From Armatimonadota bacterium (GTDB lineage Bacteria > Sysuimicrobiota > Sysuimicrobiia > Sysuimicrobiales > Humicultoraceae): 32,759 nt of DNA. The position numbers and the translations under genes are program-made. The stretch covers positions 21,124 through 53,882 of the forward strand of contig JAVHMA010000026.1 in assembly GCA_031081715.1 (NCBI GenBank), written 5' to 3'. Positions 4,089 to 12,370 of the stretch are shown here, one piece after another. Position 1 is the first letter of the stretch; the number at the start of each line of letters is the position of its first letter. The notes beneath the pieces were generated by a model. It did not search any database. It saw only the letters and a list, made by a program, of their open reading frames with translations, and was not told where the DNA came from.

Positions 4089-4679
4089 ATGCACGGGATC
4101 AGGACTGTCGCGGCCGTCGGACTCGCTCTGGCGGGTGGGGCCTGCCTGCGCGCGGCCCCACCCGCCTTTCACGGCCTGCCGGTTCGTGAACCGTTCCCGG
4201 TAGCGATCACCCTGCTCGACCACCACCGTCGCCCGTTCTCGCTCGACGCGCTGCGGGGCACGGTGGTCCTCCTCGCGTTCGGCTACACGCTCTGCCCCGA
4301 CGTCTGCCCGACGACGCTGGTCACCCTTAGACAGGCGCGGGCGTTGCTGGGCGCGGACGCGACGAAGGTGGTGGTGCTCTTCGTGACCACCGATCCGGAT
4401 CGCGACACGCCCGAGCGACTGCAGTGGTACGTCTCGATCTTCCACCCGGACTTCATCGGCCTCACCGGCGCACCAGGGGCCCTGGCACGCCTCTATCGGG
4501 CCTTCAACGTCTATCCCGTGCCCTACGCGGCGGCCGGGTCGGGCGAGGACGCCCGCATCGGCCATGCCACGGCAATCTACCTCATCGACCGGCGCGGGAC
4601 GATCCGGTTCTCGTACCCGTGGGGTGTCCTCGCCGCGGACCTGGCGGCGGACGCACGGGCGGTGCTCGCGGAGCGCTGA
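4089..4679 (+). CDS. SCO1/SenC-family copper chaperone
   Basis: This thioredoxin-fold protein of 196 residues normally delivers copper to the CuA site of cytochrome oxidase or acts as a thiol reductant. The copper ligands are Cys69 and Cys73 in CPDVC, and His159 in the IGHATAIYLID segment. The TTDPDRDTPERL segment typical of the family is also present. The N-terminus is a signal sequence with Cys19, which could be lipidated, although the preceding residues (GGA) are not a classic lipobox. The ATG lies 1 bp after the plastocyanin stop, which suggests translational coupling. No cytochrome oxidase genes are in the window, so the client could be the local cupredoxins or an oxidase elsewhere. Confidence 0.93.
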   Translation: MHGIRTVAAVGLALAGGACLRAAPPAFHGLPVREPFPVAITLLDHHRRPFSLDALRGTVVLLAFGYTLCPDVCPTTLVTLRQARALLGADATKVVVLFVTTDPDRDTPERLQWYVSIFHPDFIGLTGAPGALARLYRAFNVYPVPYAAAGSGEDARIGHATAIYLIDRRGTIRFSYPWGVLAADLAADARAVLAER

Positions 4680-4910
4680 AGGACGGCGGACCTGGACCGA
4701 AAGCTGGCAGCGGCCGGGCCGGGGAAGGCAGATGGGGATGCGACGGTGCGCCTCAGTTGCCCGCTGGGCGCCGCGGGAAGTACCGTGTCGTCGCCTGATT
4801 CGCCAGCCGCCGTGCCGGATTCGACGACCGACGAGGTCTCCCCCGAGTCCCGGCCGCGCCATCTCGAACCGCAAGGAACTGACGCGGCGCCGGATCCGAC
4901 GGGCATCCCC

Positions 4911-4947
4911 GAAGAAACAAGACGCGAGTGCGCGGAAGCACTCGCGT
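4911..4947 (-). terminator. Intrinsic terminator forming the riboswitch expression platform
   Basis: On the minus strand a perfect 10-bp stem (ACGCGAGTGC / GCACTCGCGT, hexanucleotide loop TTCCGC, 4922-4947) is followed by CTTGTTTCTT, a U-rich tail at about 4911-4921. The U-tract is only on the minus side, so it terminates minus-strand transcription. An alternative 8-bp stem, GGAAGCAC (4953-4960) with GTGCTTCC (4934-4941), would use part of the terminator's 5' arm. It is therefore a candidate antiterminator. Its first two bases overlap the 3' edge of the aptamer. Confidence 0.85.
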
Positions 4948-4958
4948 AGCCGGTGCTT

Positions 4959-5040
4959 CCTCTTCGGCAACCCAGCCGGCCCCTGTGCTGGCCCTGTGGC
5001 TTTGCGTCCCCGGATCGCTCCGGGTTTGCCCGTTCGGAGG
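4959..5040 (-). promoter_or_regulatory. Cyclic di-GMP-I (GEMM-I) riboswitch aptamer
   Basis: The minus strand carries the hallmark GEMM-I blocks in order. First is GGGCAAACC, then a hairpin CCCGGA-GCGA-TCCGGG closed by a GNRA tetraloop. Next is GGGACGCAAAGCC, a variable P2-type helix, then GGGTTGCCG. The tetraloop and conserved GCAAAGCC match the known architecture. By alignment to the Vibrio Vc2 aptamer, the G that contacts one guanine of the ligand (G20) is present, which favours c-di-GMP over cGAMP. It lies just after the stop of the 58-residue membrane protein and before the intrinsic terminator. A short CCTC/GAGG pairing may close P1. Which gene it controls is unclear. The + strand 4680-4910 beyond it holds no gene I can support. 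Confidence 0.85.
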
Positions 5041-5050
5041 TGCGCGCTAT

Positions 5051-5227
5051 TCAGTTACCCCGAATGTTACCCCGGCCGGGCGGTTTTGGCAAGGGGGAAG
5101 ATGGCCGCCGGCGCCGGGCCCGTACCTCCACGGCCAGGATGTAGGCGGCCGCGGCCAGAGCGAGGCCGAAGACCGCCACCGCCACGACCTCGTCCCAGAC
5201 GCCATACGCGCCGTGCAGGAGGTTCAT
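5051..5227 (-). CDS. Small single-span membrane protein (58 aa), last gene of the copper operon
   Basis: This 58-residue protein has one hydrophobic segment (about residues 14-33, VVAVAVFGLALAAAAYILAV) followed by a basic Arg/Pro-rich tail. Its ATG overlaps the TGA of the TolB-like gene (ATGA), a strong sign that it is translated as part of the operon. I do not recognise a family. Small basic single-span proteins of this kind occur beside cytochrome and haem-handling genes, but no function can be assigned from sequence. The stop codon is followed within about 10 bases by the GEMM riboswitch. Confidence 0.65.
   Translation of the reverse strand: MNLLHGAYGVWDEVVAVAVFGLALAAAAYILAVEVRARRRRPSSPLPKPPGRGNIRGN
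5064..5092 (-). promoter_or_regulatory. Candidate sigma70-type promoter for the riboswitch RNA
   Basis: On the minus strand TTGCCA (5087-5092) and TAACAT (5064-5069) are separated by 17 bp. They match the consensus at 5/6 and 4/6 positions. The predicted start near 5056 is about 15 bases before the aptamer. Terminated RNA would be about 145 nt. The promoter lies inside the end of the 58-residue membrane protein gene, so the riboswitch may be transcribed both alone and as the 3' UTR of the copper operon. Confidence 0.45.
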
Positions 5228-6276
5228 CGGACCAGCCAGTCGAGCCCGCCTCCGGCGCCGTCCTCGACCAGAAGCCGCAGGACACCGCGCGCCGGGTCGA
5301 GCAGGTAGAGGCCGCGGGCGCCGATCAATGCGATCCACCGGCCGTCCGCGGACCAGGCCGGGGTGGCGTCATCCTCGCCCACCATGGTTAGCTGCCGAAG
5401 CCCGCTGCCGTCGACGTCCACGATCCACAGGTCCATGGGCAGACCATGCGCCCAGGCGGGCTGGGGGCCTGCAAGCGCGTGGCGCCACCCGCCCGGCAGC
5501 CGTGAGCGCCGCTGCGGGTCGCGCGGCGGACCGCCGACCGCGGGGAACGCGATCCGGCGCGCATTCGGCGAGAAGCGCGGGATACCAAACCCCAGGAACG
5601 CCGGATCTTGAACGAGCGCGCGGGCGCCCGTGCCGTCCGCGCGGGCGAGCCACAGCGACGGCGCATAGGTCGCCGGGTCCACCCGCACGTACGCCAGGTC
5701 CCCGCGGGCAGAAACCGCGGGTGCCACGGCGTCGCGCACCAGCACCTGCGGTCTCGGAAGGTCCACGCTCGCGCGCTCGATCTGGGTCTTTCCATCGCGC
5801 GAGACGCGGGCATAGACGAGCGCCCTGCCGTCCGGCGTCCAGGTCACGTCCACCAGCGACGAACCCGGCACGTCGTGGGCGAGCGCGGTGCGCCGGCCGC
5901 GGCCGGCAGCGTCCATCACGTCGATGTCCACCCCGCCCGGTTCGAGGCTGGGCGGCGGCGCCGGCCGGTAGACGCTGAACGCGATGCGCCGGCCGTCGCG
6001 CGAAGCCGCGGGCGAGGCCGCGTAGACGCCCCCCGGAAATGTCGCCAGGTCCGTGGTCACACCGGTGGCGATTGCGTAGGTCCGCAGGACCGAGCGCGCG
6101 TCGGCGGTGTAGGCCGCGTAGACGAGCCTGCCCGGCACCCCCGCCACAGGGCCGGTCGCGCGCTCGGGTGTCTGGCCGCCGGCTGGCGGCAACGCCAGCC
6201 AGGCGGCCAGCGCCAGCAGCGTCGCGACCGCCACCGCCGCGGCACGCGGGAAGGCGTGAGCCGGCCAGGCGGTCAC
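5224..6276 (-). CDS. TolB/PD40-type beta-propeller protein, exported
   Basis: This is a protein of 350 residues with an N-terminal hydrophobic anchor or signal (about residues 11-32). Repeated PD40 (TolB-like) blades follow, with SRDGRRIAFS, TPDGRALVYAR, SPNARRIAFP and SADGRWIALI motifs. Such propellers usually act in the periplasm or on the cell surface as binding scaffolds. The GTG start at 6276 overlaps the TGA of the CopD-cytochrome gene; the frame is open far upstream but there it is only a shadow of copD. It sits between copD-cyt c and the 58-residue membrane protein in one operon. No catalytic motif is visible, so the role beside copper and haem proteins is unknown. Confidence 0.85.
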   Translation of the reverse strand: MTAWPAHAFPRAAAVAVATLLALAAWLALPPAGGQTPERATGPVAGVPGRLVYAAYTADARSVLRTYAIATGVTTDLATFPGGVYAASPAASRDGRRIAFSVYRPAPPPSLEPGGVDIDVMDAAGRGRRTALAHDVPGSSLVDVTWTPDGRALVYARVSRDGKTQIERASVDLPRPQVLVRDAVAPAVSARGDLAYVRVDPATYAPSLWLARADGTGARALVQDPAFLGFGIPRFSPNARRIAFPAVGGPPRDPQRRSRLPGGWRHALAGPQPAWAHGLPMDLWIVDVDGSGLRQLTMVGEDDATPAWSADGRWIALIGARGLYLLDPARGVLRLLVEDGAGGGLDWLVR

Positions 6277-7970
6277 CGGTCGGCAAGCGCCAGGGTGCGG
6301 AGGAAGTTGAGCACGTGCCAGCGCTCCTCCTCGGAGAGCGTGTCGCGAAACGCCGGCATCGCGGTGCCCGGAAAGCCCTCGGTGATCCAGTAGAAGAGCT
6401 GGCCGTCGGTGTGGCCGGCGGCCATGTGCACGCGCAGGTCCGAGGGCCGCGGTCGCAACATCGCGGCCGCGGGCCCGTCCCCGGCGCCCGCGACGCCGTG
6501 ACAGGACTGGCAGTGCTGCCGGTAGAGGCGCTCGCCCGTGGCGACCGAGGGCGGTGTCGCGGGGATGGGGTTCGTCCGGTCGAACAGCCCCGGCGCGTCC
6601 GAGGCAGCGGCCAGCGCGCGCAGCCCGAGCGCCGCGCTCAGGACCACGAGCGCCGACGCCGCGGCCAGCAGGGGCGCCGCGACCGCGGCCTGCGCGGCGA
6701 GCCGGCGCAGCGCGTAGACGCCGGCGAGCGCGCCGGCGAGCACGCCGGCCAGGGCGGGCAGGCCGCGGTCCCACCCGCCGCGCGGGACGTCGAGCCCGGG
6801 CCGCGCCTGCACCGGCACACGCGCGACGCCACCCGGCACCTCGATCGCGACCTGCCAGGTGCCCGCCATCACCAGTGGCACGGTCGCCCGGTACGCGCCG
6901 CGGCCGAGCCGCGTGGCCACCACCTGCACCGGCGCCATCTCGTGGTCGAGCATGGTCAAGACGAGCCGCACCCGCACGTCGTCCGCGGGCGGCGCGCCGC
7001 GCTCGTCCAGCACGCTCATCTCCAGGTCGAATCCCTCGGCCCCGCGCGGGCTGAGGCTTCCGCGAACGATCCATGGGCCAGCGGTCTCGCGAAACGACGT
7101 GACCTGCGCGAGCGTCACCGGGGTCTGGGGAAGCGGCCGCGTCGTGAGGACCCCGGTGGCAACCAGCACGCCGACCAGCAGCAAGGCTTCGACGCGCACC
7201 AGCCGGCCGAAGGCCGCGAGCACCCGCGGGCGCGCAGCGGCGGGCAGGAGCACCCAGCGGTTGGCCCCGGCCACGGCGAGCACGACCGCAAAGAGCGCGA
7301 CCTTTACCAGTAGCGCGTGCCCGTAGGCGGTGCGCACCAGTGCCGGCGGACCCCACAGGTGCCCGGCGGCCGCGAGCACACCGGTCGCGAGGAGGACGAC
7401 AACCGCAAGCAACCCGAGCGACGAGACGCGCCACAGTGCTCGGGACAGGCCCGCGGTGGCCGCACGCGGCGGCCAGAGGGGCAGCCACGCCAGGTACAGC
7501 AGCGTCCCTGCCCAGGCCGCCATCGCGACCAAGTGCACCAGGTCGACCGCAATCAGGAACAGACGACCGGTGCCGGCGGCGTGGCTGGTGAGGCTGAACG
7601 TCGCCAGCAGCATCGTCGCGACCACGACGAACGCCGGCCGGTCGATCACGGGTCGGTCCGCGCCGGCCGGGCCAAGCGCGACGAGGACGAGCGCAAGCCC
7701 CACCCGCGCCATGACCGCGTTGCCGTGCGTCGTGTCCAGGAGGTAGCCGGACAGGCGGGTGACGTCGAGCACCCCGAGTGCGCGCGTGATGGCGCCAGCG
7801 GCCTCGGCCACCGTGCTGAGAACGAGCAGCACCAAACCCGCGGCCCAGCCCGCGGCCAGCCGCCGGGACGCGGCGTCTTCGAGCGGAGGGCCGGTCCACC
7901 GCCCGAAGATGCCGGCACCGACACACAACACCGCGCCCAGGTAGAGCCCGGCCTTGACCGCCACGTCCAC
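6273..7970 (-). CDS. CopD copper-resistance/uptake membrane protein fused to cytochrome c
   Basis: This is a 565-residue fusion. The N-terminal half (about 1-295) is a polytopic CopD domain with conserved His segments (TSHAAGTG, VHLVAMAAWAG, YGHALLVKV). The middle (about 300-410) resembles a YtkA/FixH-like beta domain (LDHEMAPVQ, AGTWQVAIEV), followed by two or three more membrane helices. The C-terminus (about 465-565) is a class I cytochrome c with CQSCH at 487-491 and a likely axial Met538 in GTAMPAF. The GTG start has an excellent GGAGCGGAGGAA ribosome site. It lies 18 bp after copC. Covalent haem next to a copper transporter suggests copper-coupled redox chemistry or electron exit from copper proteins; that coupling is inference. 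Confidence 0.9.
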   Translation of the reverse strand: MDVAVKAGLYLGAVLCVGAGIFGRWTGPPLEDAASRRLAAGWAAGLVLLVLSTVAEAAGAITRALGVLDVTRLSGYLLDTTHGNAVMARVGLALVLVALGPAGADRPVIDRPAFVVVATMLLATFSLTSHAAGTGRLFLIAVDLVHLVAMAAWAGTLLYLAWLPLWPPRAATAGLSRALWRVSSLGLLAVVVLLATGVLAAAGHLWGPPALVRTAYGHALLVKVALFAVVLAVAGANRWVLLPAAARPRVLAAFGRLVRVEALLLVGVLVATGVLTTRPLPQTPVTLAQVTSFRETAGPWIVRGSLSPRGAEGFDLEMSVLDERGAPPADDVRVRLVLTMLDHEMAPVQVVATRLGRGAYRATVPLVMAGTWQVAIEVPGGVARVPVQARPGLDVPRGGWDRGLPALAGVLAGALAGVYALRRLAAQAAVAAPLLAAASALVVLSAALGLRALAAASDAPGLFDRTNPIPATPPSVATGERLYRQHCQSCHGVAGAGDGPAAAMLRPRPSDLRVHMAAGHTDGQLFYWITEGFPGTAMPAFRDTLSEEERWHVLNFLRTLALADR

Positions 7971-11207: not shown

Positions 11208-11630
11208 GTGCGTCGATGCGAACCCGCTCGTACCGTGACTCGCGTTCCGGCTGCCGCGGTGGTGCTCGTGGCCGCCGTGCTCGGCACCGCCTGCCTGGGG
11301 AGTGCACCCGCGCGCCGTCCCGCCGCCGGCCCCCCGATCGCGATGCCCAGCCCGGGCCGTCCGGTCGCCGTCACCATCGAGGTCTTCGGCACCACCGGCA
11401 CCCGGTTCGGCGGCTCGTACGGCGACTACACCGCGCCCAGGACGGTCGAGGGCACTGTCCCGGCCCGCTTCACGTTCGAGGCGCGACAGGGCTTCACGGT
11501 GGCGCTGCAGAAGCGCGCCGCCGCCGGGGAGCTGGGCATGGAGATCACCGTGGACGGTCGCCGGGTCAAGCGCGTCGCCACCACGCGACCATACGGAGCG
11601 CTGACCCACCGCCAGGCCGCCGGCCGCTAG
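11208..11630 (+). CDS. Probable lipoprotein with an MmpS-like beta-sandwich
   Basis: This exported protein has 140 residues. The N-terminus is a hydrophobic signal ending VLGTAC, so Cys29 is a possible lipidation site, although the box is not classic. The mature part reads like an MmpS/immunoglobulin-like domain: VTIEVFGTTG, a turn with SYGDYTAP, a VPARFTFEA strand and GELGMEITVDGRRVKR near the end. This matches the GxITCxIxVDGxV pattern of MmpS proteins in layout, though not their Cys pair. The GTG start has GGGAGGAA upstream. It follows the YibE/F gene by 13 bp and precedes nadE by 2 bp. Confidence 0.7.
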   Translation: MRRCEPARTVTRVPAAAVVLVAAVLGTACLGSAPARRPAAGPPIAMPSPGRPVAVTIEVFGTTGTRFGGSYGDYTAPRTVEGTVPARFTFEARQGFTVALQKRAAAGELGMEITVDGRRVKRVATTRPYGALTHRQAAGR

Positions 11631-11632
11631 GC

Positions 11633-12370
11633 ATGCGGCCAGCGCCCGCCCGCACCGCCGAGCACCTGGTGCGGTGGCTGCGCGCGCGCGCCGACGAGAC
11701 CGGCGCCGTGGGCGCGGTGGTCGCGGTCTCAGGCGGGGTGGACTCGGCCACGGTCGCCGCGCTCTGCGCCCGCGCGTTTCCCCAGACCACGCTCGGCGTG
11801 CTGCTGCCGTGCCACAGCGCCCCGCACGACCGCGCCGACGCCGAGCGCGTGTGCGCGGCGCTCGGCATCCCGTCGACGACCGTCGTGCTCGACGGCGTCT
11901 ACGACGCGCTGGTCGCGGCGCTGCGGGCGTCCCCGCAGTTTGCCGACCACCCGATCGCGCTCGCCAACCTCAAGCCGCGGCTGCGCATGGCGACGCTGTA
12001 CTACTTTGCGAACCGGCTGAACCGGCTCGTGGTCGGCACCGGCAACCGCAGCGAGGCCCACGTCGGCTACTTCACCAAGTACGGCGACGGCGGGGTGGAC
12101 CTGCTGCCGCTCGGCCTGCTCGTGAAGGACGAGGTGCGCGCGCTCGCCGCCCACCTGGGCGTGCCGCAGGACATCGTGACGCGCACGCCCAGTGCCGGGC
12201 TGTGGCCCGGCCAGACCGACGAGGACGAGTTGGGCCTCACCTACGAGGTGCTCGACCACTACCTGCTGACCGGCGAGGCCCCGGACGGCGCCCGCCGGCG
12301 CATCGAGCAGCTCCACGTCGCCAGCGCCCACAAGCGCCGCCCACCCCCGATTGCCGACCTCCCGGACTGA
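11633..12370 (+). CDS. nadE: NH3-dependent NAD+ synthetase
   Basis: This enzyme of 245 residues adenylates nicotinic acid adenine dinucleotide and amidates it with ammonia (EC 6.3.1.5), the last step of NAD synthesis. The PP-loop SGGVDS is at residues 33-38. TGNRSEAHVGYFTKYGDGG, which binds the deamido-NAD substrate, begins near residue 136. KDEVRALAAHLGVP and the P-loop-facing PSAGLWPGQTDEDELG follow. There is no glutaminase domain, so free ammonia is the expected nitrogen donor. The length is normal for the short form. It starts 2 bp after the lipoprotein stop, and its 3' end overlaps the MFS gene by 20 bp. Confidence 0.95.
   Translation: MRPAPARTAEHLVRWLRARADETGAVGAVVAVSGGVDSATVAALCARAFPQTTLGVLLPCHSAPHDRADAERVCAALGIPSTTVVLDGVYDALVAALRASPQFADHPIALANLKPRLRMATLYYFANRLNRLVVGTGNRSEAHVGYFTKYGDGGVDLLPLGLLVKDEVRALAAHLGVPQDIVTRTPSAGLWPGQTDEDELGLTYEVLDHYLLTGEAPDGARRRIEQLHVASAHKRRPPPIADLPD

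Follow-up and report, generated by a model that had tools for sequence, protein, structure and literature searches.

A c-di-GMP-I riboswitch on the minus strand of the window (the whole stretch of DNA analysed here, 32,759 nucleotides long) is likely to head a stand-alone transcription unit in which it controls a structured non-coding RNA. The unit, made up of a promoter, the aptamer, an expression platform and a structured domain (Table 1), is present in four more genomes from the same family (G002, G003, G005 and G008), spanning four genera in total, with flanking DNA that diverges on both sides. An earlier note on this DNA had called the riboswitch an orphan with no gene behind it. This is right for proteins, as the 109-aa ORF that follows has no Pfam match and its frame is not conserved, and wrong once RNA genes are counted, as a conserved structured domain follows at 4862-4706.

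Table 1. Features of the riboswitch-ncRNA unit (window coordinates)
Feature	Positions	Strand	Basis or remark
Promoter TTGCCA-17-TAACAT	5064..5092	-	sole promoter-like site in the region
c-di-GMP-I (GEMM-I) aptamer	4962..5040	-	RF03167 and RF01051 above thresholds; P2 capped by GNRA loop GCGA
Antiterminator hairpin GGAAGCAC...GTGCTTCC	4934..4960	-	arms 4960-4953 and 4941-4934
Intrinsic terminator	4912..4947	-	10-bp stem 4947-4922 and T-rich tail CTTGTTTCTT
10-mer GCCCGTCGGA	4895..4904	-	directly after the terminator; complementary to aptamer 5' strand TCCGAACGGGC
Conserved structured ncRNA domain, 157 nt	4706..4862	-	covariance model matches in five genomes, fold z-scores, pair counts
Closing helix, 5' strand	4838..4860	-	21 pairs with 4727-4706
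Closing helix, 3' strand	4706..4727	-	pair counts
Hairpin P2 of the ncRNA	4800..4834	-	loop motif GA[AC]TCCGGCAC
Core block GCGGGCAACTGaGGCGCACCGTCGCATCCCC	4734..4764	-	common to window, G003 and G005; absent from G002 and G008

The aptamer is the single RNA match returned by cmscan against Rfam for the whole window (4962-5039, minus strand). The GEMM-I aptamer recognised in the earlier note, which proposed a check with Infernal against RF01051, is genuine: RF01051 (c-di-GMP-I, GEMM-I) matches at 4963-5040 (-) with 60.8 bits (cut-off 35), and RF03167 (c-di-GMP-I-GGC) scores 61.2 bits (cut-off 59, E 2.7e-12). The ligand-contact residues of c-di-GMP-I aptamers, which we take to be G20, A47 and C92 in Vc2 numbering, all have their equivalents in the window, as read from the RF03167 alignment and the sequences of the copies: a G immediately 5' of P2 (CGG-GC), an A within ACGCAAAG and a C within UUGCCGAAG. 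The RF03167 consensus carries a G at the A47 position (ACGCGAAG), and from the name and consensus of that family we read this G as the defining residue of the variant. The window passes the RF03167 score but reads ACGCAAAG rather than ACGCGAAG, and the GGC label looks like an effect of overall similarity, the contact residues being those of an ordinary c-di-GMP-I aptamer. Specificity for cGAMP was rejected, as position 20, presumably an A in cGAMP riboswitches (GEMM-Ib), is G in the window and in five related copies.

Every one of the 43 genomes of the phylum that were examined has at least one GEMM-I aptamer, and the window genome has 11. The ORFs behind its other aptamers include an HD domain, a sigma-70 region 2, two pilin-type N-termini, a CAP domain and a periplasmic binding protein, and these targets are conventional. 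Same-strand GEMM-I aptamers lying ~110-1200 nt apart form candidate tandem riboswitches in other genomes (G039:C4, G025:C57, G036:C4 and G035:C93).

The promoter, aptamer and overlapping antiterminator and terminator that had been proposed for the minus strand are confirmed at 4911-5092. The promoter is the one promoter-like site in the 2.8 kb between 3600 and 6400 (0.2 expected by shuffling), and its TTG[CT]CA element and 17-nt spacer are conserved in all five genomes. It falls inside the 3' end of a 58-aa ORF (5051-5227, minus strand) that has a hydrophobic segment and no Pfam match and overlaps the stop of the TolB-like gene. The terminator stem has 7 GC pairs and a 6-nt loop, and its counterpart is present in the relatives. 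The antiterminator was found in 6/6 related copies, namely the five linked to the ncRNA and one in G003 that precedes a protein gene. In all six, the P1 strand GAGG (4959-4962 in the window, where it has GG in common with the antiterminator 5' arm GGAAGCAC) overlaps the antiterminator arm, and the antiterminator overlaps the terminator. The G003 copy belongs to a second riboswitch (L149, G003:C133:12659-12739, minus strand) with the same antiterminator platform, and its Cys-rich protein gene has an AGGAGG ribosome-binding site, so that the platform can serve a protein gene too.

Folding of the six copies places the two states close together (gap ~0.2-3.0 kcal/mol between the P1 and antiterminator states). 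In each of them the antiterminator is the preferred fold as soon as its own 3' arm has been transcribed: as long as the terminator lacks its 3' arm, it has an advantage of 0.3-2.8 kcal/mol over the P1 state. When the terminator arm has been made too, the P1-plus-terminator state is within ~3 kcal/mol of the antiterminated state, and in the window and G003 it is the more favourable of the two. The energy of the ligand could therefore decide the balance, which suggests that c-di-GMP acts as an OFF signal; the OFF switch proposed in the earlier note is thus supported by the shared GG and by near-equal energies in six copies. For the full-length window RNA the terminated fold is the more stable (-56.2 vs -52.3 kcal/mol), so that read-through would need kinetic control. 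By sequence and folding, a terminator predicted to be ligand-linked precedes a non-coding RNA. Directly behind this terminator lies GCCCGTCGGA, whose counterparts are found 56-77 nt past the aptamer in 6/6 copies (statistical support is weak), and which might, from its complementarity, be an anti-aptamer lock holding the read-through RNA unbound.

The mechanism that we propose runs as follows. Transcription would start just 3' of the conserved promoter, at about 5057. With c-di-GMP bound, P1 (CCUC/GAGG) would hold the GG required by the antiterminator, the terminator would form, and an RNA of ~145 nt would be released. Without ligand, the antiterminator would form and the polymerase would read through, giving a transcript no shorter than ~350 nt that carries the 157-nt structured domain. 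This domain would be the product under selection, and it would most likely work in trans, with RNA as its target or as a decoy that binds protein. The direction of the switch, the ligand, the action in trans and the target are the parts that we infer; on comparison of the sequences, the promoter, aptamer, platform and domain are conserved, and a protein frame is not. The suggestion that the ~145-nt RNA is itself a small RNA holds as regards a small-RNA role, but not for the terminated RNA as main product, since the conserved domain points to the read-through RNA.

The domain begins ~100 nt beyond the aptamer. Its closing helix has 94% of cells paired, with two pairs altered on both sides, and pair probabilities of 0.95-1.00 inside the folded read-through RNA; the P2 loop GA[AC]TCCGGCAC is invariant in the five genomes bar one A/C. 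A stretch of 65-69 nt that includes the core block is 88-91% identical to G005 and G003. All five copies are more stable than their shuffles (z -2.9, -4.0, -3.2, -4.6 and -6.3). In the model alignment, which was in part fitted to a pair structure itself derived partly from the same five sequences, 92.8% of cells pair, against 39-47% with the partners slid. Changes on both sides of a pair affect 8 cells (2.9 in shuffles, none of 500 reaching 8) or six pairs (2.7 in shuffles), in a sample of five copies and few events from one family (11 genomes examined). The orientation of the domain is given by the G-U pairs: 205 of 221 cells pair when the aptamer strand is read, against 188 when the other strand is. 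Taken as statistics for an RNA, these figures are good but not overwhelming. Rfam has no family for the domain, with only chance matches even at E 10, and a known RNA behind the switch was rejected; no clear intrinsic terminator was found 3' of the domain.

That the region past the terminator encodes instead a small, conventionally controlled protein (ORF 4906-4577, minus strand) is scarcely credible. There is an open frame of 109 aa, it has a 44% identity match behind the G005 aptamer, and in G003 the second platform copy is indeed followed by a protein gene that has a ribosome-binding site. However, the frame has no Pfam match, is not conserved and gives way to no other that is common to the five genomes, a 1-nt indel in the best-conserved block breaks any reading frame, and the structure statistics favour RNA. 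The indels and the absence of a common frame led us to reject a small protein, and no conserved coding gene, which the earlier note had named as a refutation, stands behind the homologous terminators. The covarying closing helix, the better pairing on the aptamer strand and the frameshifting indels together argue that the domain is RNA and not protein.

It was this weak downstream ORF, used as a query, that matched G005 directly behind another aptamer, and alignment of the window with G005 and G003 shows that conservation takes in the promoter, the aptamer and the platform as well as another domain of ~150 nt. Identity to the relatives is 87-92% over the aptamer (four relatives), 80-86% over the platform, 50% over the spacer and 56-74% over the domain, falling to 35-42% upstream of the unit and 25-41% downstream of the domain. 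A covariance model of the domain built from these three copies (R1) detected two more, in G002 (E 7.5e-9) and G008 (E 1.1e-8), both ~100 nt behind aptamers that had already been detected separately; as R1 holds no aptamer information, this placement is an independent check. The five-sequence model (R2) found no sixth copy in the phylum, nor was there any copy beyond the five in 386 genomes at E <= 0.01, where the fast filters scored few candidates per genome. The other aptamers of family f1 yielded no further domain member at useful E-values, and four f1 genomes carry a zur-like gene or znuA, yet no copy of the unit was detected in them. The exact core pattern matched G003 alone among 84,980 species genomes and nothing in viral contigs; when a fixed N is built into the pattern, G003 and G005 escape it, as both have a 1-nt deletion.

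The genetic context of the unit differs between the window and the relatives. In G002, G005 and G008 the unit has nadE on one side and zur-znuACB on the other; the G003 contig starts inside the lipoprotein gene neighbouring nadE, and zur follows the unit. In the window genome, the lipoprotein gene and nadE are at window positions 11331-12079 (+), and zur-znuACB sits on the minus strand of the same contig, at ~14.1-11.5 kb. There the copper genes separate nadE from the unit, and zur is ~12 kb away from the unit, with sco and other genes in the interval. As the nadE-unit-zur order is kept with copper and sco genes interposed, the copper/sco neighbourhood looks incidental. The copper context is probably a later insertion; the reverse order of events at this locus is possible. 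The link to the copper operon drawn in the earlier note is not supported, and a switch in the 3' UTR of that operon was rejected as a conserved role, since no copper operon adjoins the unit in the relatives. With the TolB-like protein that the copper operon encodes as query, one 39% relative was found, in G004, and the downstream stretch examined there has CopC-like genes and lacks a GEMM match; the same query had no match in the genome contig collection. Elsewhere in the window, a single ORF (6273-7970, minus strand) unites CopD, YtkA-like and cytochrome c domains, and the window genome has a distant second ZnuA-like gene between the zur-znu and sco genes (G000:C49:18181-18993, plus strand).

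The same comparison bears on an antisense action, in which read-through RNA or polymerase collision would repress the convergent sco-plastocyanin operon. The layout is indeed convergent (sco stops at 4679), and no other riboswitch family is as enriched for antisense placement as that of c-di-GMP (PMC9943018). However, the four relatives have the unit beside zur-znuACB, sco adjoins it in the window genome only (a sco-like match in G005 is far from the unit and has no GEMM match nearby), and the conserved domain stops short of sco. The riboswitches of PMC9943018 are likewise directed against a convergent gene, whereas here that gene is not conserved and the downstream RNA domain is. The convergent target not being kept in relatives, control of sco was rejected as a conserved role, and we regard the antisense reading in general as very improbable.

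Less improbable, though still unlikely, is that switch and domain together make up a long 5' leader of zur-znuACB acting in cis, the window copy being a remnant cut off by inserted genes. The order nadE-unit-zur in one direction in all four relatives speaks for such a leader, and in three of them zur follows within roughly 100-300 nt. Against it, zur is separated from the domain by a promoter-like site with a Zur/Fur-like box in G002, G003 and G005, a HicB-like gene is interposed in G008, and the window copy, with zur ~12 kb away, shows no less conservation than the copies still linked to zur. A contribution in cis to zur is possible in the three relatives where zur is that close. The gene interposed in G008 (locus L115; HicB-like/UPF0150, 0.2-0.5 kb downstream of the ncRNA) separates ncRNA and zur in no other genome. 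The case for a stand-alone RNA rests chiefly on the persistence of the unit where its link with zur is broken, in the window genome and in G008.

Riboswitches that govern a non-coding RNA in place of a protein gene are rare. In Rli55 of Listeria an ncRNA is under the control of a vitamin B12 riboswitch (PMC8079631), and its likeness to our unit, as predicted from sequence and folding, is that a ligand-controlled terminator decides on a longer ncRNA with a functional 3' structured element, the short RNA being made on ligand binding. The two differ in that Rli55 senses vitamin B12 and the aptamer here is of the c-di-GMP class, and in that the 3' element of Rli55 is an ANTAR site binding EutV, whereas the domain here has no Rfam match. 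The merRNA of Bdellovibrio, which also has a c-di-GMP aptamer but has been proposed to be an RNA of another kind, is, in the part of the source consulted, a massively expressed RNA of 445 nt, proposed as a c-di-GMP store and not found outside Bdellovibrio (PMC3627812). As described there, it shares with the unit a c-di-GMP riboswitch in an ncRNA with no conserved ORF behind it, a precedent for a sponge or reservoir in which the aptamer would be the function and the 3' domain would stabilise the transcript. We consider this decidedly improbable, if a little less so than the antisense reading, as a reservoir needs neither a conserved terminator and antiterminator nor a conserved domain beyond them, and that part of the source describes no terminator-gated conserved 3' domain for merRNA. 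By analogy, the unit resembles Rli55 more than merRNA. In C. difficile, a c-di-GMP-II aptamer is coupled to a group I ribozyme (PMC9481103); there too a c-di-GMP aptamer is joined to a second structured RNA, but the aptamer is of another class, the ribozyme serves an mRNA as its expression platform, and the domain here has no Rfam ribozyme match.

The unit suggests that a riboswitch which looks like an orphan, or like an antisense element, can hide an unannotated RNA gene, and the covariance models of the domain (152-156 positions) are a ready search tool for others. More tentatively, and with somewhat more doubt than confidence, the unit may represent a new family of trans-acting structured ncRNAs, confined to one family of an uncultured phylum, probably Sysuimicrobiota/CSP1-3, turned off by c-di-GMP through a dedicated riboswitch and carrying an anti-aptamer lock on the read-through RNA. 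A c-di-GMP-gated ncRNA retained across four genera would let the second messenger act through regulatory RNA.
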